A DNA stretch of 64,000 nt, from assembly GCF_001278115.1 (NCBI RefSeq), contig NZ_LIYD01000005.1, forward strand, positions 495,906 to 559,905. Reading direction: 5' to 3'. Source of the DNA: Flavobacterium akiainvivens (lineage in GTDB: Bacteria; Bacteroidota; Bacteroidia; Flavobacteriales; Flavobacteriaceae). How positions within the stretch are numbered: position 1 is the first letter of the stretch; each line of letters opens with the position of its first letter. Below, piece after piece: positions 1 to 59,071 of this stretch. The translations under genes were made by a program, and so were the position numbers. A model generated the notes under the pieces. It was not told where the DNA came from. It did not search any database and saw only the letters and a list, made by a program, of their open reading frames with translations.

Positions 1-555
1 AAGGTTGTTTAATTCTTTAAAATCACCTATATCTGCTTGTTTAAGTGCATTGATATAAACCGTTCTCGATTCACCGTCCCGGCTATAAAAATCTAAAGGA
101 TAATACCCTAACTTTAATGCTACAAGATTCATTAAAATACGGCCAAGCCTGCCATTTCCATTATTAAAGGGATGTATTATAACAAACTGGTAGTGTGCAA
201 ACACAATACAATCTATATGGTCCTGCCTGCTTTTTACAATATTAATTTTGTAATTGAGGTTATCAAGAAACTGATACATTAAGTTTGGTATGCGATGAGG
301 CTCAGGTAACTGTAACTGCCCGGCCTGAACGCTGATTTTACGCCATTTTCCTGCCCAGCCATACAAGACCTGAAATGCTGCTTTGTGTAGTTCGAGGATA
401 GTGTCAACTGTTATATTAGCCAGGATATCTATTTCAAACATCCTGATTTCTGCCTTGGCAATACCTTCAGCTTCAATTTCGTTAATCTTTGAAATATCGG
501 TTATACCTAACAGATTTTCTTCAGGGCCCGAAGTATAGTTTGTATTGTTATCCAT
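1..555 (-). CDS. Fic domain protein, C-terminus cut by window edge
   Basis: The 185 visible N-terminal residues form a Fic/DOC protein. The motif HPFNNGNGR starts near residue 128; H128 would be the catalytic base and the Gly/Asn/Arg residues bind the nucleotide phosphates. Known Fic enzymes usually transfer AMP or another nucleotide monophosphate to a hydroxyl of a protein; the target here cannot be told. The ATG at 555 follows the upstream membrane-protein gene by 7 bases, suggesting co-transcription. No toxin-antitoxin style small partner with an obvious inhibitory motif is visible. The family call is firm; the role is unknown because the C-terminus and downstream neighbours lie outside the window. 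Confidence 0.9.
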   Translation of the reverse strand, partial: MDNNTNYTSGPEENLLGITDISKINEIEAEGIAKAEIRMFEIDILANITVDTILELHKAAFQVLYGWAGKWRKISVQAGQLQLPEPHRIPNLMYQFLDNLNYKINIVKSRQDHIDCIVFAHYQFVIIHPFNNGNGRLGRILMNLVALKLGYYPLDFYSRDGESRTVYINALKQADIGDFKELNNL

Positions 556-562
556 TTCGACT

Positions 563-841
563 TTATATTTTTTTACGCCTCAACTTCATAAAAGCATACA
601 GAATCCCGGTATGTATAACAATATTGATTACCATAAGGGTAAGGCCAAACCATGTAGGACTGGTATAAAAAGGCCAAGTAGGGTTTATGAGACTAAGGGG
701 CAGGGCAAGGAGCACGTTTAATAAGTGCCCGATGGATTCGGCAAATTTGGGTACTATTTCCTGCGTGAGGAACAGCCCAAGCATACCGAGTAGCAATTCA
801 ACAATCAACAATATGGCGAAAAGCCTTAAATAGGTTTTCAT
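563..841 (-). CDS. Small membrane protein, function unknown
   Basis: This 92-residue protein is mostly hydrophobic. A first membrane segment covers about residues 5-28, a second lies near 38-55 (LLNVLLALPLSL), and a third near 63-85 ends in a positive LRRKKI tail that should face the cytoplasm. It has no lipoprotein cysteine. The stop lies 7 bases before the Fic gene start, so the two probably share a transcript. I do not recognise the family and no function can be given. Confidence 0.6.
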   Translation of the reverse strand: MKTYLRLFAILLIVELLLGMLGLFLTQEIVPKFAESIGHLLNVLLALPLSLINPTWPFYTSPTWFGLTLMVINIVIHTGILYAFMKLRRKKI

Positions 842-945
842 TGGTTAGGCGTATAAAAAAATTATGCCTCGAAAATAAGTATAATTTTTCGGCCTTTAAA
901 ATCATGTAGAATTACAAATAAAACGTTAAAAAACTTGCTCACATC

Positions 946-974
946 AAATTCACGATATATCGTGAATTTTTTTT
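946..974 (+). terminator. Perfect palindrome with plus-strand T-run, no plus-strand gene upstream
   Basis: Positions 946-969 are an exact palindrome centred at 957/958, and Ts continue to 974. On the plus strand this has the shape of an intrinsic terminator, but the neighbouring genes are all on the minus strand. It may end an unseen plus-strand RNA, or be an operator or a repeat instead. Confidence 0.4.
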
Positions 975-1155
975 AGCGACGAAAACGCAAAGCACTAACA
1001 AACAGAAACTTAACGAAAAAGCATTTTTTTGCTTCATAAATCATATAATTGGAAATCCTATCCGACAACAAAACCATGTCAAAACACACTACCTTCTTTT
1101 ACAACCAAACTTTTTATGGCTTTTTGATGCTGCTTTTTAAACGTAATTTCAAACT

Positions 1156-1181
1156 CCAAAAGTGAAATATTAAGCACTTTT
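1156..1181 (+). repeat. Dispersed intergenic element, copy 1
   Basis: This 26-mer begins CCAAAAGTGAAATATTA and ends GCACTTTT. It matches the reverse complement of 51060-51085 with one mismatch, and its first 17 bases are identical to 25512-25528. The ends (CCAAAAGTG and CACTTTTTGG) are inverted, so it can fold. It lies just downstream of the ABC transporter gene. Confidence 0.7.
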
Positions 1182-1228
1182 TGGGTTTGAGTGTAGTTCA
1201 TTCTGACGTCAAAAATCTGAAATTAGGA

Positions 1229-3001
1229 TTACTCTTCAGCTTCCACCGCAAATTGCGAGTAATAAAGGTTTTTGTAGTAGCCTTCGCTGCGGTTAATCAG
1301 TTCGTAATGAGTGCCTTCCTCTACAATTTTGCCTTTATCCATCACGATAATCTTGTCGGCATTGACAATCGTAGCCAGCCTGTGCGCAATTACAATTGAG
1401 GTGCGCCCCTGGGTTACGGCGTCGGTTGCATTGCGTATAAGTTCCTCACTATGAGTATCTATAGATGATGTAGCCTCGTCTAAAATCAGTATGGCAGGGT
1501 TGCTAACATAAGCCCTCAGGAAGGCTATGAGCTGCCTTTGCCCGCTACTGAGCATTACGCCACGCTCCTTAACATTGTAGTCGTACCCTTCCGGCAGGCT
1601 CATGATAAAGTCGTGTACGCCAATGGCTTGCGCGGCTTTTATAACCTGCTCACGGCTTATTTGCGGGTTATTAAGGGTAATGTTGTTGAGTATGGTATCT
1701 GCAAACAAAAACACATCCTGAAGCACCACAGCAATCTGGCGGCGCAGGCTGTCGAGTGTAAAGTGGTCAATATCAGTATTATCTATGGTGATAGTGCCGC
1801 TGTCAATCTCATAAAAACGGTTCAGCAGGTTGATAATTGTACTTTTACCGGCACCTGTTGCACCTACTATGGCTACGGTTTGCCCGGCCTCTACCTTAAG
1901 GGTAATCCCTTTTATAACTTCCTCATTTTCAATATAACTGAAGCGTACATCGTTAAAATACAGGTCGCCTTTAAAATGCCATGCTTCCTGGGTGCCCTGT
2001 TGCTGTATATTCTGTTCTAAATCAAGTACTTCAAACACACGGTCGCTTGCCACGATGCCCATTTGCATCTCGTTGAATTTATCGGCAATTTGTCGTAACG
2101 GGTTGAATAACATAGGGATATACATCAGGTAGCCTATCAGGTCGCCCGGTGTGGTAAAGTTATCATGGGCCACAATGCTCATACCTCCGTACCATATTAC
2201 AAACCCGAGGGTTACGGCCGAGACGATATCGGCAATAGGGAAGAACACCGAGTTGTACAGGATGTTCTTTTTCCAGGCATCGTTATGTTTTTGGTTTATT
2301 TTTTTAAAGTTCTCATATTCAATATCTTCACGGTTAAAAAGCTGTACGATTTTCATACCGGTAAGGCGCTCCTGAACAAAAGTATTGAGGTTGGCCACCT
2401 GGGCGCGTACCTCTACAAAGGCTACCTTCATTTTCTTCTGGAAGATGCGGGTGGCAATAACTAAAAACGGCATGGCAAGCATTACAACCACTGTCAGTTT
2501 CCAGTTGATCCAGAACATAAACCCTAAGATTACCAGCATTTTAAGTATGTCTGATACTATCATGAACAAACCCTGGCTGAATATTTTGGCAATGGACTCA
2601 ATATCAAAAACGGTGCGGGTAACAAGGCGTCCAACTGCCTCGTTATCAAAGAATTTCATCCTGAAACTGCTTATGTGGGCAAAGAGTTTCTCTCGGATAT
2701 CCTTTACAATATCCTGCCCAAGCCAGTTGGCCCAGTACACAAAATAGAACTGTGCGGCAACTTCAAGTATTAGTGCCACAGTCATTACTATAATGTAGGT
2801 AATGAGGCCGTTATAGTCTTTGTGTTCAAGTGTTTTATCTACCACATCGCCGGCATACATGGGGCGCAGGGCGGCAAATAATGAGAGGGCAAGGGCAAAA
2901 AGTACAACCCACACAAAGCGTGAGCGGTAGGGTTTTGCAAACTGCATCACTTTTTTGAGTGATGATATATTCTTATTCTTAGGGGTGTCTTTGGCTTTCA
3001 T
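1229..3001 (-). CDS. ABC exporter, MsbA-like, fused permease and ATPase
   Basis: This 590-residue half-transporter has six membrane segments in about residues 28-320 and an ATPase domain from about 345. Walker A GATGAGKST begins near residue 380; the signature LSSGQRQ and Walker B ILILDEATSS follow, with the switch histidine in IAHRLAT. Such proteins form homo- or heterodimers that export lipids, drugs or peptides across the inner membrane using ATP; the substrate cannot be read from sequence. I chose the ATG at 3001. An in-frame TTG at 3013 would overlap the truA stop by 4 bases and is possible. It probably forms an operon with truA. Confidence 0.92.
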   Translation of the reverse strand: MKAKDTPKNKNISSLKKVMQFAKPYRSRFVWVVLFALALSLFAALRPMYAGDVVDKTLEHKDYNGLITYIIVMTVALILEVAAQFYFVYWANWLGQDIVKDIREKLFAHISSFRMKFFDNEAVGRLVTRTVFDIESIAKIFSQGLFMIVSDILKMLVILGFMFWINWKLTVVVMLAMPFLVIATRIFQKKMKVAFVEVRAQVANLNTFVQERLTGMKIVQLFNREDIEYENFKKINQKHNDAWKKNILYNSVFFPIADIVSAVTLGFVIWYGGMSIVAHDNFTTPGDLIGYLMYIPMLFNPLRQIADKFNEMQMGIVASDRVFEVLDLEQNIQQQGTQEAWHFKGDLYFNDVRFSYIENEEVIKGITLKVEAGQTVAIVGATGAGKSTIINLLNRFYEIDSGTITIDNTDIDHFTLDSLRRQIAVVLQDVFLFADTILNNITLNNPQISREQVIKAAQAIGVHDFIMSLPEGYDYNVKERGVMLSSGQRQLIAFLRAYVSNPAILILDEATSSIDTHSEELIRNATDAVTQGRTSIVIAHRLATIVNADKIIVMDKGKIVEEGTHYELINRSEGYYKNLYYSQFAVEAEE

Positions 3002-3009
3002 AACGAGCC

Positions 3010-3744
3010 TCAAAGATACGGATATTTTACCTTAGTAAGGTACAATCCGTGTGCCGGAACCGAGAAACCTGCGGCACTACGGTCGCGGCTTTCTATTATC
3101 TGCCTGAAATCGTGCAGGTTAATTTTGCCAAGCCCCACATTTACAAGTGTACCCACAATGGCGCGCACCATGTTGCGCAAAAAACGGTCGGCCGTAACGG
3201 TAAATACAAGGCGGGTGCCGTTTTGCTGCCAGTAGGCTTCGGTAACCTTGCAGTTAAAGGTTTTTACATCGGTGTGGGTTTTGCTAAAGCATTTAAAATC
3301 AATATATTCAAAAAGTATTTTAGCGGCTTCGTTCATTTTATCCACATCCAGCGGGTGAAAGTTATACCAGCTGCCTTCGGTTACAAAAGCATCCTTAAAG
3401 GTATGGATATGATACTCATAAGTTCGGCTGGTGGCGTCAAAACGGGCATGAGCTTCGTCGTGCAACTGAATGAAACGGTACACCACAATATCCTTTGGCA
3501 AAAAGGCATTGAGGCGTTTGGTGAGGATGTCACTGTCTATAACATCTTCATAATCAAAGTGTGCAAACATCTGGGTGGCGTGCACGCCGGTATCGGTACG
3601 GCCTGCGCCTACAACGTCTATCTCTTTGCGTAGCAGGATAGAAAGCGCCTTGTTAAGCGTTTCCTGAACTGACGGGCTGTGGGGCTGGTACTGCCAACCG
3701 CAGTATTCCTTACCGTTATAAGCAAATTCTATGAAGTATCTCAT
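3010..3744 (-). CDS. truA: tRNA pseudouridine synthase A
   Basis: This 244-residue protein converts uridines 38-40 of the tRNA anticodon arm to pseudouridine. The catalytic aspartate is D51 in GAGRTDTGVHA, and length and layout match the TruA family end to end. The ATG at 3744 lies only 5 bases after a TATCTTTG promoter box on the same strand, so the mRNA may be leaderless or nearly so. The downstream ABC exporter begins within a few bases of the stop, suggesting co-transcription. Confidence 0.95.
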   Translation of the reverse strand: MRYFIEFAYNGKEYCGWQYQPHSPSVQETLNKALSILLRKEIDVVGAGRTDTGVHATQMFAHFDYEDVIDSDILTKRLNAFLPKDIVVYRFIQLHDEAHARFDATSRTYEYHIHTFKDAFVTEGSWYNFHPLDVDKMNEAAKILFEYIDFKCFSKTHTDVKTFNCKVTEAYWQQNGTRLVFTVTADRFLRNMVRAIVGTLVNVGLGKINLHDFRQIIESRDRSAAGFSVPAHGLYLTKVKYPYL

Positions 3745-14640: not shown

Positions 14641-15984
14641 TTAAAATCCGAACCTGAAACCAAGGTAGGCATCTGCCTGGTGTGTATCGGCAATGGCGGC
14701 CGAAAGTATAGAGCCGGAACCCAAATAAAAGAAACCTGCACGCAAGCCAAAACCCGCTGTAAAATCAGATATTTCGTTTACAGACATAGGGACAAAAACT
14801 TCAAAATTGCTGAGTGAAAAACGGGGTATAAGCGTTATCATGTTTTGCACGGCTATCTGGTTGTTGTTATTGTCTTCATTAAACTTTTGCTGAATGTATA
14901 GCGCTGCATAAAAGTTGCTTACAAAATTTACATCGGCATAGGCGGCAATGTAAGTGGGCAGGTTTATTTTAAAGTCGCGGTTTGTTTGTGTTAGTGTTAC
15001 AAAGCCACTTTGCAGCAATATGTCTTCAACTTCCTGAATGTTATCTACGTTTTCAAACTGATTGAGGTTGAGCGACTGATTTGCCGGAATATTTAGGTTG
15101 TAGTTATTTTCGCGGTTGTTATCATCTTTAAATGTAAGGCTGCCTATATTTTTTAAAGACAGGCCGGCATTTATAAAATAGCGCCCGGGGTCGGTACTGC
15201 TTTTTAACTGGTAGTTAACGCCTATATCTGCACCAAAACCGTTTAATCCGCCGGCGAAGAATTTGGTATAATTACTGCTGTCATCAAAACCGTTAGCAAG
15301 AGAGCCGCTATAGGCAAAGTTAAGGCTTGCAGTAGCATTTGTAAGGGCAACATCATTATTATTGTTAATTACAATACCATCAAGGTTTCCTGCACCAATA
15401 TTTGCATAAGACCCGGGAAACAAAAGTTTTAAATTAACCCCTACACTTAGCTTTTGTTTATCGGTTTCTAAAAGGGTTTTGGCTACATTAATACCTATTT
15501 CTCCCCAGGATGTGGCTACACCACGCTGGTTAAAATTGTCAATAATATCATAAACCTCAGTAACATTATCTATACCGCCATTTGTTACCGCATTAGCAAG
15601 GGCAGGGTTAAGGTCTATCATATCGGCACGCACTTTTGCAGTAGTGGAAACCCCAAAGGCCCAGCTGCGGTATTTAACTGCAAACGAAGGCCCCAGCAAC
15701 TCTATGTCTGTACGCAGGTTTGTAGGTTGCGTACCGCTAAAAACAAGGTCGCTAAAATTTTCGCCGCTCACAATATCGCCAAAGGTTATTTTATTATTTG
15801 CAATCCCGGCACTTACACCAAAAACATTGAGTTCGTATTTAGTGGTCAGGTTTGCCAGTTCGGCGGGGTTTATCCCGGCATTTAAAAAGCTAACGCGGCG
15901 TGATGTGCTCATGCCTGCAAAATGTTGCTGTGCAATTACAGATGTGCCGGTAAGCACAAAAGCTAATAGTAAGGTTTTTTTCAT
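14641..15984 (-). CDS. DUF5723 family outer-membrane protein, copy 1
   Basis: This 447-residue protein has a signal peptide ending IAQ, then the DUF5723 start QHFAGMSTSRRVSFLNAGINPA, which fits a PorV/FadL-like outer-membrane barrel. It ends in aromatic QADAYLGFRFGF, a typical barrel terminus. It is a close paralogue of the protein at 16148-17494: both share the INPAEL/LNPAEL region, FPGSYA, SLNFAYSGSL and the C-terminal DTHQADAYLGFR. Function is unknown. The pair is a tandem duplication on the minus strand, separated by a terminator and 163 bases. Confidence 0.85.
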   Translation of the reverse strand: MKKTLLLAFVLTGTSVIAQQHFAGMSTSRRVSFLNAGINPAELANLTTKYELNVFGVSAGIANNKITFGDIVSGENFSDLVFSGTQPTNLRTDIELLGPSFAVKYRSWAFGVSTTAKVRADMIDLNPALANAVTNGGIDNVTEVYDIIDNFNQRGVATSWGEIGINVAKTLLETDKQKLSVGVNLKLLFPGSYANIGAGNLDGIVINNNNDVALTNATASLNFAYSGSLANGFDDSSNYTKFFAGGLNGFGADIGVNYQLKSSTDPGRYFINAGLSLKNIGSLTFKDDNNRENNYNLNIPANQSLNLNQFENVDNIQEVEDILLQSGFVTLTQTNRDFKINLPTYIAAYADVNFVSNFYAALYIQQKFNEDNNNNQIAVQNMITLIPRFSLSNFEVFVPMSVNEISDFTAGFGLRAGFFYLGSGSILSAAIADTHQADAYLGFRFGF

Positions 15985-16096
15985 AAAAGGAGATTTAATA
16001 GTTGATTAGAGAACAATAAAAATAAATAAAAAATCTAATTAGCAACTACTTACAACCTAATTCGTAATGTTTCTTAATAAAATAATAACAAAAAAA

Positions 16097-16116
16097 ATCC
16101 TCCAAAAATGAAGGAT
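16097..16116 (-). terminator. Intrinsic terminator after the second DUF5723 gene
   Basis: On the minus strand ATCCTTC pairs with GGAGGAT (one wobble) over a six-base loop, followed by Ts. It separates the two DUF5723 paralogues into distinct transcripts. Confidence 0.65.
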
Positions 16117-16147
16117 CTGGTATTGTGCTATAAACAGGAAACAAACC

Positions 16148-17494
16148 TTAAAAAGCCCAGCGGAAGCCCAGGTAAGCATCGGCCTGGTGGGTGTCGCCAT
16201 CACTAAGCAAGGCGGTTAAAACAGAGCCTGAGCCTATAAAAAAGCCGCCATACCTAACGCCCAGCCCCGCGGCAAACCCCGAAATTTCGTTTGAAGACAG
16301 GGGAGCGAAGAACTCATATTTACCCGGTGAGAAACGGGGTATAAGGGTAACTGTGTTTTGTGCGGGAATCTGGTTTTGGCTTACATCGCTAACCAGCTTT
16401 TGCTGAAGGTAGCCGGTTATGTACCATGCGTTATACACTTTTACATCGGCATACAGCGAAAACATGGCGGGCAGTTTGGCCACAAAATCATTAGATTGCT
16501 TTGTAATCTTGGCATAGCCACTTTGCAGCAGTAGTGCCTCAATCTGGCTTATGGTGCTTACGTTTGCAAACTGGTTAAGGTTAAGATACTCGCCCTGCGG
16601 CACGTTTAATACATACGTATTACTCTCGTTGCCACTATCCCTGAATTTCATGCTGCCCAGGTTGCGGAACGACAGCCCCACATTTATACGGTAGCCGGTA
16701 TCGGTTTCCTGTTTCCAGCGGTAGTTAAAGCCAAAGTCTACCGCAAAGCCGTGGGGGCCGTTACCAAAATAATTGGTAAAGTTACCCGAATCGGTAAAAT
16801 CATTCCCCAGCGAGCCGGAGTAGGCAAAGTTAAGGCTTGTAGAAGCATCTGTTAAGCCTATACCGCCGGTGTAGCCCTCTATGGTGCCTGTAAAGTTGCT
16901 GGAGTACATCCTGGCGTAAGAACCCGGAAAGAGTACTTTAAATGTAACGCCTGCGTTTAAGGTATGCCCATTATCGCTATAGATTTCCCGTGCGGCAGAA
17001 AGGCCTATTTCGCCCCAGGTGGTTGCTGCGGCACTCTGGTTGTAGTCTACCAGTACGGCTGCTGCCGCTGCAAGCGAATCTACACCGCTATCGGCTATAA
17101 CAGCACGGCCCAATTGCGGATTAATGTCTTTAATATTGGCCTTGGTTTTACCGGCTGTTGTTATGGCAAATGCCCATTTCCCTTTTTTGAATGCAAATGA
17201 CGGACCCAGAATTTCGAGGTCGGCATTAAGGTTGGCCGGGGCATTACCATCAAAAAGCAGGTCGGTAAACTCGCGGTCGCCCCACAACTGGCTAAAGGCC
17301 ATTTTGTTGTTGGTGAAATTAGCGCTAAAGGTTATGATGTTGGCTTCGTTTTCTGAAGTGATATTGACAAGCTCGGCAGGGTTTAAGGCACCGCTAATAA
17401 TACCGGTGCGTTGCGATGTATTGATGCCCGCATAATGCTCCTGTGCCTGCATACTGTAGCAGCACAGCACAGTTAAAATCAGTATTGCTCTCAT
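16148..17494 (-). CDS. DUF5723 family outer-membrane protein, copy 2
   Basis: This 448-residue paralogue of the neighbouring DUF5723 protein starts MRAILILTVLCCYSMQAQ, a signal peptide. The mature protein begins EHYAGINTSQRTG, and the barrel ends ADAYLGFRWAF. I took ATG 17494; an in-frame TTG seven codons upstream would precede the signal. Both copies keep full length and the key shared segments, so both are probably functional. The duplication has diverged well, so it is not recent. Confidence 0.85.
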   Translation of the reverse strand: MRAILILTVLCCYSMQAQEHYAGINTSQRTGIISGALNPAELVNITSENEANIITFSANFTNNKMAFSQLWGDREFTDLLFDGNAPANLNADLEILGPSFAFKKGKWAFAITTAGKTKANIKDINPQLGRAVIADSGVDSLAAAAAVLVDYNQSAAATTWGEIGLSAAREIYSDNGHTLNAGVTFKVLFPGSYARMYSSNFTGTIEGYTGGIGLTDASTSLNFAYSGSLGNDFTDSGNFTNYFGNGPHGFAVDFGFNYRWKQETDTGYRINVGLSFRNLGSMKFRDSGNESNTYVLNVPQGEYLNLNQFANVSTISQIEALLLQSGYAKITKQSNDFVAKLPAMFSLYADVKVYNAWYITGYLQQKLVSDVSQNQIPAQNTVTLIPRFSPGKYEFFAPLSSNEISGFAAGLGVRYGGFFIGSGSVLTALLSDGDTHQADAYLGFRWAF

Positions 17495-17632
17495 AGTTGT
17501 GTGGTTTTTAACCAATTTAAGAATTAGTTAGCAACTGTTTATCTATGAGTGTGTTATAACTGTGTGAATGTTAGGTAGATATAAAAGGGGCTTTTAAGAA
17601 TAAAAACGTTTTCGTTTAACAGGTTGTGATAT

Positions 17633-18322
17633 TTATACCGATTTCCAAACCGAATCATCGGGCACCGGGGCGGTAATAACCAGCTGTTCTTTAGTAACCG
17701 GGTGTGTAAGCTGCAACCTCCTGGCGTGCAGGTGTATGCCGCCATCGGGGTTGCTGCGGCCGGCGCCATATTTAAGGTCGCCTTTAATGGGCGAGCCTAT
17801 TGCGGCCAGCTGAGCGCGTATCTGGTGGTGGCGGCCGGTGTGCAGGTCAATTTCGAGCGCAGTGTAGTTTTGCAGGTGCCTGATTATCTTGTAGTCAAGG
17901 CTGGCCTTTTTACTGCCTGAAACCTCTTTAGTGTGGGCGTGGCTGGTGTTGCTTTTTTCGTTGCGGGTAAGGTAGTGCACCAGTGTACCATTTTCCTGAA
18001 CAGGCGGGTTTTTTACCACTGCCCAGTAGGTTTTTTGGGTTTCACGGTTTTTAAACAGTTCGTTAAGCCTTGTTAGTGCCTTGCTGGTGCGGGCAAATAG
18101 CACTATGCCTGTAGTGGGCCTGTCGAGCCTGTGCACCACACCCAGGAATACTTCGCCGGGTTTGTTATACTTATCCTTAATATACTCCTTAACCACATCG
18201 CTAAGGGGCTTATCGCCAGTTTTATCGCCCTGCACAATATCGCCCACGCGTTTGTTGACCACTATTATGTGGTTGTCTTCGTAGAGGACGTTTAGGTTTT
18301 CTTTTGTGGATAGTACTTTCAA
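17633..18322 (-). CDS. RluA-family pseudouridine synthase
   Basis: This 229-residue enzyme isomerises uridine to pseudouridine in rRNA or tRNA. The catalytic motif HRLDRPTTG lies near residue 64-72, followed by LFARTSKALTRLNELF and later GRHHQIRAQL. There is no S4 domain, so it belongs to the compact RluA group. The substrate cannot be assigned. The start is TTG at 18322; the conserved N-terminus (MKVLSTKENLNVLYEDN) supports it. The arm of an inverted repeat begins four bases upstream, so this repeat supplies the 5' leader. Confidence 0.9.
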   Translation of the reverse strand: MKVLSTKENLNVLYEDNHIIVVNKRVGDIVQGDKTGDKPLSDVVKEYIKDKYNKPGEVFLGVVHRLDRPTTGIVLFARTSKALTRLNELFKNRETQKTYWAVVKNPPVQENGTLVHYLTRNEKSNTSHAHTKEVSGSKKASLDYKIIRHLQNYTALEIDLHTGRHHQIRAQLAAIGSPIKGDLKYGAGRSNPDGGIHLHARRLQLTHPVTKEQLVITAPVPDDSVWKSV

Positions 18323-18325
18323 AAT

Positions 18326-18360
18326 GGATTGTTAGATTATTGGATTTTTAGATTGTTAGA
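18326..18360 (+). repeat. Left arm of the inverted-repeat unit
   Basis: Built of the words GATTGTTA, GATTATTG and GATTTTTA. It is the reverse complement of 18719-18753 at 34 of 35 positions. Confidence 0.85.
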
Positions 18361-18363
18361 AAG

Positions 18364-18714
18364 CTACGATAGCGTTGATCGAAACTTAGATGTCATCCTG
18401 ATGATAGCCTGAAGTTTTAGTATTAAGGCTTCGAGTTCTTCAGGCTTTAAAAAACCCAAATCTGAAGAAATCAGTAATTGTGCTTCAACTTCGAATGCAG
18501 AGCCTATTGCAATCTCTAAAAATCTTGAAAAATCTTTGTTAGAACTTCTTGAAGAGCCTTCGGCTATATTACAGGGGATAGAAACAGAAGCGCGGCGCAA
18601 CTGGTTAGTTAAGCCAAATTTTTCTGACTCAGGAAATTTTGAAGTTACTGCATAAATATCGGTACAAAACTTCCTGCTTTGCTTCCAAATTTCCAAGTCC
18701 TTGAATCTATGCAT
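18364..18714 (-). CDS. Four-helix-bundle protein, S23/IVP family
   Basis: This 116-residue protein starts MHRFKDLEIWKQSRK and contains FPESEKFGLTNQLRRASVSIPCNIAEG-type sequence (NQLRRASVSIPCNIAEGS) typical of the family found in 23S rRNA intervening sequences and of the accessory proteins of diversity-generating retroelements. Known members form pentameric basic four-helix bundles and can bind nucleic acid; their role as free-standing genes is unresolved. I start at ATG 18714, leaving the arm of the flanking inverted repeat outside the coding region. No reverse transcriptase or rRNA is nearby. The gene is intact. Confidence 0.9.
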   Translation of the reverse strand: MHRFKDLEIWKQSRKFCTDIYAVTSKFPESEKFGLTNQLRRASVSIPCNIAEGSSRSSNKDFSRFLEIAIGSAFEVEAQLLISSDLGFLKPEELEALILKLQAIIRMTSKFRSTLS

Positions 18715-18718
18715 ACAG

Positions 18719-18753
18719 TCTAATAATCTAAAAATCCAATAATCTAACAATCC
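18719..18753 (-). repeat. Right arm of the inverted-repeat unit
   Basis: Inverted copy of 18326-18360 with one mismatch. It lies directly upstream of the four-helix-bundle gene and ends three bases before the panB stop codon. Confidence 0.85.
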
Positions 18754-18756
18754 AGC

Positions 18757-19575
18757 TTAATATTGCTCCTTCTCGTTAGGGAAATCGCCGCTCTTAACAT
18801 CTGCCGAATATTGTCCTATGGCCTGTGTCATGCCTTCAAACAGGTTCATGTAACGGCGCAGGAAACGTGGGCTAAACTCGTTGTTCATGCCCAGCATATC
18901 GTGTATAACCAGTACCTGGCCGTCTACACCGCCACCGGCACCAATGCCTATTACGGGTATGGTAAGGCTTTCGGCAACCCTTTGTGCAAGTGCAGCCGGA
19001 ATTTTTTCGAGCACTACGGCAAAACAGCCCAGGCGCTCTAAAAGCTGTGCGTCTTCAATTAGTTTTTCGGCTTCGGCATCTTCTTTGGCACGCACGGTGT
19101 AAGAGCCGAATTTATATATACTTTGCGGCGTTAGCCCCAGGTGGCCCATAACGGGTATGCCTGCATGCAGCAGTTTTTTAACCGAGTCTTTAATTTCGGC
19201 ACCGCCTTCCAGCTTAAGGGCGTGGGCACCGCTTTCTTTCATGATGCGTATGGCTGAGCGTAATGCCTCTTTTGGGTCGCTTTGATACGTACCAAACGGG
19301 AGGTCTACCACTACAAGGGCACGCTCTACACCACGCACTACCGATGAGGCGTGATACACCATTTGGTCGAGCGTAATGGGCAGGGTGGTTTCGTGGCCTG
19401 CCATAACGTTACTGGCCGAGTCGCCCACCAGGATTACATCTACACCCGCGGTATCAACTATTTTGGCCATGGTAAAATCATAGGCGGTTAGCATGGAGAT
19501 GCGCTCTCCATTGGCTTTCATTTCAATAAGCGACTTGGTGGTTATGCGTTTGTAATCTTTTTTAGCGACTGACAT
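18757..19575 (-). CDS. panB: 3-methyl-2-oxobutanoate hydroxymethyltransferase
   Basis: This 272-residue enzyme makes ketopantoate from 2-oxoisovalerate and methylene-tetrahydrofolate, the first step of pantothenate (CoA precursor) synthesis. Family hallmarks are [30 protein letters not shown], the metal-binding Asp residues in [16 protein letters not shown] and [11 protein letters not shown], and GIGAG late in the chain. Length is normal. No other pan gene is near; the four-helix-bundle unit sits directly downstream. Confidence 0.96.
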
Positions 19576-19610: not shown

Positions 19611-19677
19611 AAGTTTTCAGTCGCAGTCACAGTTTTCAGTTTGGACAGCCTGATGACTGCGACTGCGACTGAAAACT
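19611..19677. repeat. Palindromic word-repeat element (CAGTCG words)
   Basis: Left arm AGTTTTCAGTCGCAGTC (19612-19628) is exactly complementary to the outer end of the right arm (19655-19677), which repeats GACTGC. The element lies between the divergent panB and NTF2-like genes. Architecture matches the other palindromes here, but the GAGTGAAG-like core is not seen. Confidence 0.75.
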
Positions 19678-45867: not shown

Positions 45868-45954
45868 GGTTATGGTTTGTGGTTTATGGTTTATAGTTTA
45901 AGAGCTGAGTAAGCAACCATAAACCATAAACCATAAACCACAAACTATAAACTA
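45868..45954. repeat. Palindromic word-repeat element (GTTTATG words)
   Basis: Left arm from 45868 and right arm to 45954 are complementary and built of 7-base words GTTTATG/CATAAAC; GTTTGTGGTTTATGGTTTAT occurs in both arms in inverted order. The centre holds CTGAGTAAG (45905-45913), as in the element at 46616. The right arm contains the TAG stop of the HAD gene that follows on the minus strand. Confidence 0.85.
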
Positions 45955-46615: not shown

Positions 46616-46692
46616 GTTTCGAGTTTCAGGTTTCAAGTTTCAGGTTCTTACTCAGTCCCTAAACTTGAAACCTGAAACCTGAAACTCGAAAC
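46616..46692. repeat. Palindromic word-repeat element (GTTTCAGG words)
   Basis: The first 20 bases of the left arm (from 46616) are exactly complementary to the end of the right arm (to 46692). Words are GTTTCAGG/CCTGAAAC. The reverse-strand centre holds CTGAGTAAG (46647-46655) between AGTTTAGGGA and AACC, as in the element at 45868. The flanking Ts are on the plus strand although the genes are on the minus strand, so it is not their terminator. Confidence 0.85.
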
Positions 46693-51228: not shown

Positions 51229-51948
51229 ATGCAGATGATACCAAACTATAACAACCTGCCGCTTGACCAAGCAACGCGAATGCAAAACGAGATGAAGGGC
51301 AACATCTTGCTTGCCGGTTTGCAGGGTAAGGTTGTTACAATAGGAGGGGCAGATATTTCGCATAATAAATATGAAGACACCGTATATGCGGGCATTGTGG
51401 TGCTGAGCTATCCGCAAATGACACTGCTAAGCTATTCTTTAGTGGTTAGTGAGACTAAGTTCCCTTATGTGCCGGGGTATTTAGGCTTTCGCGAAGTACC
51501 CGCATTGCTCGAGGCCTGGCAACAGTTACCGCAAAAACCGGATATTATGGTGCTCGACGGGCAGGGCATAACACATCCCCGGCGAATGGGTATAGCCAGC
51601 CATTTCGGGCTGTTGGCTAATTGTGCTGCTATAGGTTGTGCAAAGAATATGCTGTATGGTAAGTTCCCGGAGCTTGGGGAAGAAAAGTTTAGCAGCAGCC
51701 CGATAACTAACGGGGGTGAGTTGTTGGGCTATGCGCTGCGCACAAAGCAGGGGGTAAAGCCGGTATATATTTCACCCGGTAATACGGTAAGCGTACCGCA
51801 AAGCCTTGAAATTATGAACAATTGTATAGGCAAACACCGCATACCTGAACCTACGCGACTGGCACATAACGCGGTAAACCTGCTGCGCACAGGCAATTTA
51901 AAGCCCGGTTACCACAGCCTTAACCCGCAAATGGATCTCTTTGGATAG
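51229..51948 (+). CDS. nfi: Endonuclease V (deoxyinosine 3' endonuclease)
   Basis: This 239-residue repair enzyme cuts the second phosphodiester bond 3' of deoxyinosine in DNA. Motifs are intact: GGADISHNK (metal), YVPGYLGFRE with the catalytic Asp/Glu set, LDGQGITHPRRMGIASHFG and the SPGN wall. The start can be ATG 51229 or 51235. Its TAG stop is the first three bases of the palindromic element that follows. Confidence 0.95.
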   Translation: MQMIPNYNNLPLDQATRMQNEMKGNILLAGLQGKVVTIGGADISHNKYEDTVYAGIVVLSYPQMTLLSYSLVVSETKFPYVPGYLGFREVPALLEAWQQLPQKPDIMVLDGQGITHPRRMGIASHFGLLANCAAIGCAKNMLYGKFPELGEEKFSSSPITNGGELLGYALRTKQGVKPVYISPGNTVSVPQSLEIMNNCIGKHRIPEPTRLAHNAVNLLRTGNLKPGYHSLNPQMDLFG

Positions 51949-52076
51949 ATTATTGGATTTTTAGATGGTTCAATTGCTCGACTTAATCAATACTTATAAA
52001 CCTGAATAACAAGGCTATTATAGGATTCGAGTGAAGCTATCTAATAATCGAACCATCTAAAAATCCAACAATCCTA
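51946..52076. repeat. Palindromic element without a gene, related to the 18.3-kb unit
   Basis: Left arm 51946-51971 (TAGATTATTGGATTTTTAGA and on) is complementary to right arm 52050-52076 with few differences. Words ATTATTGGATTTTTAGAT are as in the inverted repeat at 18326. The middle holds TTCGAGTGAAGCT (52026-52038) before the right arm. The arm ends supply the TAG stops of both flanking genes (endonuclease V and PIG-L). Confidence 0.85.
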
Positions 52077-58025: not shown

Positions 58026-58931
58026 ATGACCATAAATATACTGGGCTGTTATGCAGCCACACCGCGCACATTTACAAACCCAACCTCTCAGGTACTCGAA
58101 ATTAAAGGCCGTATGTTTTTAATAGACTGTGGGGAAGGCACACAGGTACAGCTGCGCAAGCAAAAAATAAAGTTTGGGCGCATAGAGCACATATTCATTT
58201 CGCACCTGCACGGCGACCATTTTTACGGGCTTATAGGCCTTATATCTACTTTTGCATTGCTGGGCCGCAAAAACGATTTGCACGTATACGGGCCCAAAGG
58301 CATTAAAGAAGTTATACTCCTGCTACTTAAGGTTTCTAATTCGTGGACTACATACAACCTGTATTTCCATGAGCTGGAATCTGCCGAAAGCGAGGTGGTA
58401 TATGAAGACGAAAAAGTACGTGTAAGCACCATTCCGCTGCGCCACAGGGTATACACAAACGGCTACCTGTTTGAAGAAAAACCTGCTGAGCGTACCCTGA
58501 ATATAGAAGCGGTGGAAGCGTATGAAATAGACCAGGCATACTACCGCAAGATTAAGTATGGTGGCGACATAACCCTTGAAGACGGGCGCGTGATACCCAA
58601 TGCTGAACTGACGTTTGACCCGCCGCCGTGCAAGAGCTATGCTTTTTGCAGCGACACGGCCTATAAGGAAGATATTGTACCCATTATAAAAGATGTTACG
58701 GTGCTGTACCATGAAAGTACATTTTTGGAAAGCGAGGAACGCTACTGCGAAACCACCATGCACTGTACCGCAAAACAGGCCGCCCGCATAGCCCTTAAGG
58801 CCAATGCCGGCAACCTGATATTGGGGCACTTTAGCACCCGTTATGAAAGTATAGACCTTTTTCGTGAAGAAGCCGCCACTATTTTTGAAAACGTAGATGT
58901 GGCCGATGACGGGAAGGTATTTGAATATTAA
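58026..58931 (+). CDS. rnz: Ribonuclease Z (tRNA 3' processing)
   Basis: This 301-residue MBL-fold nuclease removes 3' tails of tRNA precursors. The metal motif FISHLHGDHFYGLIG lies near residue 57, with further metal ligands in LYHESTFL and ILGHFSTRY. The YGPKGIK segment is typical. It is full length. The stop overlaps by 1 base the palindromic element that separates it from pdxH. Confidence 0.95.
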   Translation: MTINILGCYAATPRTFTNPTSQVLEIKGRMFLIDCGEGTQVQLRKQKIKFGRIEHIFISHLHGDHFYGLIGLISTFALLGRKNDLHVYGPKGIKEVILLLLKVSNSWTTYNLYFHELESAESEVVYEDEKVRVSTIPLRHRVYTNGYLFEEKPAERTLNIEAVEAYEIDQAYYRKIKYGGDITLEDGRVIPNAELTFDPPPCKSYAFCSDTAYKEDIVPIIKDVTVLYHESTFLESEERYCETTMHCTAKQAARIALKANAGNLILGHFSTRYESIDLFREEAATIFENVDVADDGKVFEY

Positions 58932-59071
58932 TTTCAGATTGTAGATTTCAGATTTCAGATTTTTTGGAATCTGAAAATCAGCTTTGGGTGTAGCTCAATC
59001 TACAATCTGAAATAGCTTTGAGTGAAGTTCAATCTGAAATCTGAAATCTACAATCTACAATCTGAAATCTA
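58931..59071. repeat. Nested palindromic word-repeat element (TTTCAGATTGTAGA words)
   Basis: ATTTCAGATTGTAGATT at 58931-58947 is exactly complementary to 58997-59013. A second arm of the same words follows to 59071. The core TTTGrGTGwAGyTCAATCT occurs twice, at 58983-59001 and 59017-59035, with three differences between the copies. The element looks like a double or nested insertion between rnz and pdxH. Confidence 0.9.

Follow-up and report, generated by a model that had tools for sequence, protein, structure and literature searches.

An S23/IVP gene enclosed by complementary short-unit arrays in the panB-rluA gap of Flavobacterium akiainvivens: a probable free-standing relative of 23S rRNA intervening sequences

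Introduction

The closest described systems to the locus analyzed here are the intervening sequences (IVSs) of 23S rRNA. As given in the available sections of PMC4990558, the Coxiella IVS is located in a 23S rRNA helix, has a 28-bp stem with GACAGAT heptamers ahead of an S23 ORF, and is excised by RNase III; the excised length is 428 nt, within a length range of 428-444 nt, and the S23 ORF is described there as undergoing decay and as probably not expressed. S23/IVP ORFs within rRNA inserts are known from these sections and from the available part of PMC11270868, and the family protein 2gsc is described as a homopentameric ring (PMC4990558, same sections, citing Lin et al. 2006). Intergenic short-unit repeats have been described as well. 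In the accessible portions of the corresponding reports, heptameric repeats are over-represented and hardly studied, with Xanthomonas GGGAATC often occurring as inverted pairs (PMC4692102); the STRRs of Nostoc, GGGGA(T/C)T, are hairpin-forming and their function is left open (PMC2670836); and the TAACTGA repeats of Beggiatoaceae may travel on mobile elements or be the binding site of a mobile protein (PMC4679880). The accessible text of PMC4692102 and PMC4679880 gave 0 matches for S23. As far as the accessible text of PMC4990558, PMC4692102 and PMC2670836 extends, the origin and role of rRNA IVSs and of heptameric intergenic repeats are left open in print. Full-text literature searches, with the papers listed judged mostly by title and abstract beginning and with most subscription journals and all preprints outside their scope, gave no title or abstract beginning linking the S23/IVP family to inverted short-unit arrays outside rRNA; this absence is weak evidence of novelty.

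Here, we analyzed a window of 64,000 nucleotides from the 4.53-Mb genome of F. akiainvivens, in which an S23/IVP unit occupies the panB-rluA gap on the minus strand. An earlier note had described this unit as a candidate minimal mobile element.

Results

Anatomy of the unit in the panB-rluA gap

In the sense direction, the upstream neighbour of the unit is panB (18757..19575, minus strand; PF02548, 382.2 bits; TIGR00222, 329.7 bits) and the downstream neighbour is an RluA-family pseudouridine synthase gene (17633..18322, minus strand; PF00849, 123.7 bits). The panB stop (18757) and the rluA start (18322) are separated by a 434-bp gap, and the unit occupies all of it except 2 bases on each side, in line with the earlier description of a unit that fills the gap between two unrelated genes. 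On the minus strand, the order in the gap was found to be the 5' arm (18719..18754), the S23/IVP four-helix-bundle gene (18364..18714; 116 aa from ATG) and the 3' arm (18325..18360), an inverted copy of the 5' arm. The complement of each arm is the other arm, 358 nt apart. The inverted match of 34/35 noted previously concerns the same pair of arms and became 35/36 when these were extended to 18325-18360 and 18719-18754. The arms are indeed inverted copies of each other; they do not form a plain terminal repeat, as each is instead an array of the 8-bp unit GATTNTTR (5' arm: period 8, 0.79), and they differ in this from the tandem 7-bp units of STRRs and heptameric repeats.

With the ATG at 18714 as the start, 4 and 3 bases separate the arms from the gene, which confirmed the distances reported before. 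The Pfam domain starts just past this ATG, and the alternative TTG start at 18750 in the ORF listing falls within the 5' arm and is unlikely to be the true one. The proposed S23/IVP assignment was borne out by profile scores far above the cut-offs (PF05635, 132.4 vs 33.8 bits; TIGR02436, 126.1 vs 24 bits). In the predicted RNA fold, the stem formed with the 3' arm closes the whole ORF (-133 kcal/mol, z -5.3), and 0/100 shuffles were equally good. The PF05635 gene was the sole ORF of at least 60 aa between the arms, where the transposase of a DNA transposon or MITE is absent. Additionally, the arms reach within 2 bp of the genes, and empty gaps carried no clear target-site duplicate by eye. Elsewhere in the window, two adjacent similar tandem ORFs of 447 and 455 aa (14641-17515) were observed, which are candidates for secreted or outer-membrane-like proteins.

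Inverted arms within this genome

To place the unit against the genomic background, 464 kb were scanned, comprising the window and 20 stretches of the same genome. Inverted repeats with a score of at least 30 numbered 36, against 3 in one dinucleotide shuffle of each stretch, and the panB-rluA unit was the top-scoring one. Among 80 small genes (ATG ORFs of 290-520 bp), 3 had flanking arms with a score of at least 28: the panB-rluA S23/IVP gene, a GIY-YIG gene (L057) and, in L059, a gene next to arrays of the GATTNTTR type. The genome contained 8 PF05635 genes, and inverted arms were found at all 8 (score 22 to 67; at least 28 in 7/8), which answered positively the question raised earlier of whether arms and gene are associated elsewhere. 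Each of the 8 genes had a different arm unit, e.g. AGGTNCTG, CAGTCG/CA or AAAGTCA, and an alignment of these paralogs was too divergent to serve as the query for the collection scan. The arms of the panB-rluA unit matched 17 other places in the genome.

The GIY-YIG gene (L057:2910-3351; PF01541, 55.5 bits) lay within 39-bp non-periodic inverted arms between convergent ORFs and possibly represents a second family of gene-in-palindrome units.

Recurrence of the arms around the S23/IVP family

Across the genus, inverted arms with a score of at least 28 were found at 27/35 of the first-fetched loci, against 1/700 shifted positions, and at 42/55 loci of the enlarged set, from which L027 and L045 were left out as cut by contig ends. 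A scan of named genomes gave a wide set of 80 loci, of which 77 were used (L179, L212 and L213 were too near a contig end); such arms were present at 53/77, against 24/3637 controls. The controls of the first-fetched genus and wide sets were shifted positions, mostly coding, to which the small-gene set adds real genes. L161 has the same arms as L083, so that independence of the wide set from the genus set is incomplete. Plasmids showed the pattern in all 12 loci taken from 29 plasmid records matching the family (score 31 to 63, best period 7; controls 1/232). Loci below a score of 28, namely 13/55 in the genus set and 24/77 in the wide set, count against a general association.

The arms at these loci were mostly arrays of 7-8 bp units that differed from locus to locus. 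Of the 95 genus and wide loci that passed, 55 had a best period of 7, 29 one of 8 and 11 some other value. By record title, the passing wide loci included Bacteroidota, Verrucomicrobiia, Pontiellaceae, Clostridia, Chloroflexi, Syntrophobacterales, Limnohabitans, Gracilibacteria, Kaiserbacteria and Lambdaproteobacteria, and many were MAGs. The nearest named matches of the panB-rluA protein were mostly from Flavobacteriales, records very near the window possibly being excluded. Within the genus, 60/61 genomes carried 1-16 copies of the gene family and one carried 0. In a 1.36-Mb sample biased towards family loci, 14/82 long-loop inverted repeats lacked the family gene, and 8 of these 14 were periodic.

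Orientation and operon context

The gene was co-directed with both neighbouring long ORFs, which were not curated genes, at 50/55 genus and 56/59 wide loci (106/114 in total). Adjacent ORF pairs in general were co-directed in 246/375 cases, and random insertion would therefore give co-direction with both neighbours in about one third. The observed count differed from random insertion with p about 1e-41, and from insertion into co-directed pairs alone with p 7e-12. Among the 11 non-rRNA plasmid loci, 7 genes were co-directed with both annotated neighbours, 3 were opposed to both and 1 had a neighbour visible on one side only. We read the co-direction as dependence on read-through transcription.

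On two cyanobacterial plasmids (L237 and L244), the family gene was located between cas6 and cas4 with heptamer arms, where it is probably an operon passenger and not a CRISPR part. The available part of PMC10910872 mentions the S23/IVP family in the legend of a figure about CRISPR-linked genes, and operon insertion of this kind may lie behind that naming. On a Gracilibacteria contig, a 6S RNA match (L228:2183-2341, minus strand; 50.3 bits, gathering score 46.4) was observed just upstream of the family gene.

The panB-rluA site across the genus

For the site survey, one panB locus was taken from each of 70 of the 73 genus genomes; 65 of these contained both PanB and RluA, and one further contig (L073) ended in the gene. 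The gene was present at the site in 16/66 species, scattered on the tree, and a panB+rluA tree of 65 (15 filled) needed at least 10 changes to account for its presence. Empty-site orthologues of the rluA-panB gap, which the earlier note had suggested looking for, were thereby found in the other 50/66 species, and the unit, with arms also at other loci, was not an identical one shared by all relatives at one site only. Among the 50 gene-less gaps, at most 8 bp followed the panB stop in 10, and 5 were longer than 500 bp with other sequence. The gene-less gaps of L078, L081, L096 and L106 carried CTAAG- and CAAAG-type arrays and a GCCTCCAGC hairpin, so that the repeats in this gap vary between species.

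The 16 site proteins clustered, the only extra row being L024, which is the same gene as L070; an AU test of the 16 as one clade gave p 0.17, a value that is uninformative because L024 duplicates L070 among the rows. Judged by this grouping, the unit at the site is old, and its present mobility is therefore doubtful. Upon comparison of the gene and flank trees, G052 and G071 were found to be sisters in the gene tree (98/98) and were placed apart by panB+rluA. AU tests revealed that the gene data rejected the flank clades (p 6e-5 and 0.019) and that the flanks rejected the gene pair (p 5e-51), for clades chosen after earlier trees had been seen and with 345 nt, a short length for tree inference. 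GATTNTTR arms at the site were common to G000, G052 and G071. The conflict between the trees, together with the shared arms, points to probable lateral movement, between lineages and apart from the neighbours, of the whole unit or at the least of its gene; short-tract recombination could be an alternative source of the conflict. None of the loci examined showed an insertion event or a target duplication, and no pair of strains with a filled and an empty site was encountered. The idea of a mobile element was thus upheld as regards lateral movement in the past, which the tree conflict supports, and weakened as regards the present by the age of the site unit and by arms that are changing, locus-specific arrays.

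At the same site in G062, TTAGACTTC arms surrounded a PF00144 gene (beta-lactamase-fold family) in place of an S23/IVP gene (L125:803-1971), a candidate for a change of cargo or an insertion. The four-helix protein, proposed earlier as the only product, is the sole ORF of this size between the arms in F. akiainvivens; at the site in one other species, like arms enclose another gene. The S23/IVP family as the sole occupant of such arms is ruled out by L057 and L125.

Turnover of the arms

The arm units at the site were GATTNTCA in G055 and TTAGACTTC in most others. For the 15 species compared at the site, arms paired with their own partners scored 768, against 521 when partners were swapped (sd 41, p 5e-5; also p 5e-5 without two near copies). 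The own partner ranked strictly first in 7/15 rows; it took places 2 to 4 in 5 others and places 8 to 11 in the remaining 3 (L072, L108 and L120). In the wide set, the median pairing score was 33 for own and 17 for cross pairs, with 194/5852 cross pairs reaching at least 28; the own partner was strictly best in only 32/77 rows, and units therefore recur between loci. An early cross-locus control, inflated by orthologous loci among the rows (cross 95% 79.6), was not relied on. From these comparisons, the arms appear to be kept complementary within a unit, through selection on the stem or arm-to-arm copying.

In G036, exact matches to the 14-mer TTAGACTTCTTAGA were restricted to the pair of arms at the site; in G009, G006, G057 and G054 they were scattered through the genome (36, 22, 13 and 37 matches, site included); GATTNTCAGATTNTCA in G055 had three matches at the site and one elsewhere. 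The idea that every arm is a copy taken from a family of its unit spread over the genome was not borne out in G036 (TTAGACTTCTTAGA) and G055 (GATTNTCAGATTNTCA). TTAGACTTCTTAGA was present in 10/13 filled and 14/46 other genomes (p 0.004, relatedness being ignored and site matches counted); G014 and G003, whose contigs end near the site, were left out, and G002, G020, G041, G044 and G048, with the site unresolved or not examined, were counted as other. Paralog pairs at separate places within one genome shared the gene and its leader, and homology ended within the 5' arm (L252/L260) or before it (L268/L270), short of the flanks.

The S23/IVP protein

The dN/dS ratio (NG86) of the gene was 0.03 to 0.09 in seven measurable pairs, one further pair being saturated and another (L069/L068) nearly so, and the values for panB+rluA were close (0.02 to 0.07). 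Decaying copies were found elsewhere, with in-frame stops at several loci in G044 and G055. A profile of the 8 family proteins of the genome matched the solved structure 2gsc (XCC0516; E 9e-29), and 2rld is also a solved relative. A search for phage carriage gave no match to the target protein at E 1e-5 in 50,697 records, and PADLOC, used to look for a defence role, gave no match for the 4 family proteins tried.

The bAvd profile scored 22.8 bits, below its cut-off of 40, so that the protein does not qualify as a DGR accessory. All three RVT_1 matches of the genome lay outside the window. Among the 61 genus genomes, 28 had the gene and lacked an RVT_1 match, including G042 (1 contig) and G057 (2 contigs), many others being drafts, and gene copy number was 5.9 with and 5.4 without RVT_1 (p 0.34). 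RT-dependent copying was set aside on the basis of these 28/61 genomes, in which the gene is present and an RT is accordingly not required for its presence.

Gene-less palindromes

The related empty palindrome reported earlier in the window was recovered at 51948..52073, between convergent ORFs; its 28-bp arms (51948-51975 and 52046-52073, period 8) flank a 70-nt loop and carry the same GATTNTTN-type unit as the panB-rluA arms. Further empty palindromes were located at 19612..19677 (CAGTCG/CA type, as around the L014 family gene; period 6, 0.50) and, with 7-bp units, at 45870..45950 (period 7, 0.88), 46616..46692 (period 7, 0.85) and 58931..59068 (period 7, 0.84). Palindromes of CACGAAT / GCGGATT type units (L054:8267-8327, L059:15987-16069 and L061:13029-13307) are another repeat kind of this genome.

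In total, 21 gene-less periodic palindromes were found in the 464 kb, with flanks co-directed in 10, convergent in 8 and divergent in 3, and their orientation differed from that of filled palindromes (p 3e-6). The 5' arm contained more G than C in 34/42, 46/53 and 12/12 filled palindromes and in 15/21 gene-less ones (3 equal), compared with 2/12 other inverted repeats of the genome; for filled palindromes this is partly confounded, as the upstream DNA was also G>C at 60/75 wide loci. Filled and gene-less palindromes look like one class.

A family gene inside 23S rRNA

On the Azospirillum lipoferum plasmid AZO_p2 (L247), the family gene was found inside 23S rRNA, with Rfam RF02541 covering 283-3318 and the gene match at 1501-1818, and its arms consisted of GACAGAG/GACGGAT-type heptamers. 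Exact matches to six 23S strings were found in none of the 80 wide loci, a search limited by contig ends and mismatches, and the units there are therefore mostly outside rRNA.

Discussion

Anatomy, recurrence, co-direction, patchy site occupation, a gene tree at odds with the flanks, purifying selection on the protein and arms that vary among species and for the most part remain complementary are established here, and a lateral history is supported. The panB-rluA unit is probably a free-standing relative of the 23S rRNA IVS, residing within an operon and transcribed by read-through from the gene upstream. In such an element, the transcript would fold with the arms pairing as a long stem around the four-helix message. 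By analogy with rRNA, RNase III would cut this stem, which would release a short mRNA and part the panB message from that of rluA, and the S23/IVP protein, a pentameric ring in a solved relative, would bind such stems and favour persistence or spread of the element.

The arms might instead belong to the target, the gene alone moving into the loops of resident short-period palindromes. This would fit the eight different units around the eight genes of the genome and the 21 gene-less periodic palindromes in the 464 kb, as well as the paralog pairs L252/L260 and L268/L270, whose homology stops inside and ahead of the 5' arm, respectively, and leaves out the flanks, and the available sections of PMC4990558 likewise place the Coxiella IVS inside a 23S rRNA helix. 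The G-rich 5' arm shared by filled and gene-less palindromes, against 2/12 other inverted repeats, points the same way; it is, however, partly confounded by G>C upstream DNA (60/75 wide loci). Against such homing, gene-less palindromes were co-directed in only 10/21 cases and, at the orthologous site, which is old, the arms vary among species. For the exact unit, TTAGACTTCTTAGA is confined to the site arms in G036 and GATTNTCAGATTNTCA has one match outside the site in G055, and therefore a resident palindrome family of that exact unit was not seen in these genomes. We regard movement of the gene alone as rather unlikely. A host gene regulated by its own hairpin, with the protein binding the stem to tune the operon and with no present mobility, is an unlikely but serious reading: purifying selection, co-direction, a single old group of site proteins and the stable predicted stem agree with it, whereas absence of the gene at the site in 50/66 species, 0-16 copies per genome at other sites, the conflict of the gene tree with its flanks and the presence of the same design inside 23S rRNA do not.

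The two remaining readings are much less probable. Gene-less periodic palindromes often lie between convergent ORFs (8/21), as would be expected if the arms were merely bidirectional terminators flanking a small gene; yet each arm pairs with the other arm 358 nt off, no self-complementarity of a single arm was reported, such flanks occur at only 2/79 other small genes and the family gene is co-directed with its neighbours, which makes this very unlikely. Copying of the element through RNA by a resident RT, with the protein as an Avd-like accessory, seems most improbable: the weak bAvd match (22.8 bits, below the cut-off of 40) and the sense orientation in operons are set against 28/61 genus genomes with the gene and without RVT_1 and a copy number that is not different with and without it (5.9 vs 5.4, p 0.34).

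If the panB-rluA unit is a relative of the IVS as we propose, a broader picture can be considered, tentatively and with somewhat more doubt than confidence. The rRNA IVSs could be the rRNA-located minority of bacteria-wide, operon-carried hairpin elements, each composed of an S23/IVP gene and two complementary arrays that turn over in concert; gene-less relatives could lie behind many as yet unexplained palindromes and 6-9 bp repeats in bacterial genomes, such as STRRs, GGGAATC and TAACTGA, and the ring protein could bind the stem and let the arrays persist or spread. The findings suggest that the inserts known from rRNA represent only the conspicuous part of a widespread class of element. A single anatomy covering IVSs and heptameric repeats makes them one testable problem, and for the S23/IVP family, which is common and whose function is open, its own stem is a concrete substrate to test. 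The shared anatomy also suggests why the family gene appears in unrelated operons, e.g. between cas6 and cas4.

Comparison with known systems

Palindromes with and without a central gene in a single genome are known for MITEs and REP-RAYT systems, which resemble this element in that respect. Unlike these, the present element has no transposase between its arms, and the arms are locus-specific arrays, not conserved termini. Compared with the PF05635/TIGR02436 proteins (2gsc and 2rld), the profile match was full-length; the protein is unremarkable and its context is new. Like STRRs and heptameric repeats, the arrays are intergenic tandem units of about 7 bp (PMC4692102, PMC2670836 and PMC4679880, accessible portions); in contrast to the repeats as described there, they form the arms around an S23/IVP gene.

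The proposal that the unit shares its plan with 23S rRNA IVSs agrees with the matching anatomy of L247 and of the reported Coxiella IVS: both have the same protein family and complementary ends closing a stem around the ORF, and the panB-rluA unit is additionally similar to the Coxiella IVS in length and in the short-unit repeats adjoining the ORF. It differs from rRNA IVSs in lying between two protein genes and in its octamer unit, and from Coxiella in that its protein is under purifying selection, whereas the Coxiella ORF is reported to be decaying. The panB-rluA unit therefore has the complementary, stem-forming ends and the S23/IVP ORF of an rRNA IVS at a location outside rRNA and, because it lies between panB and rluA, is classed not as an rRNA IVS but only as working like one.
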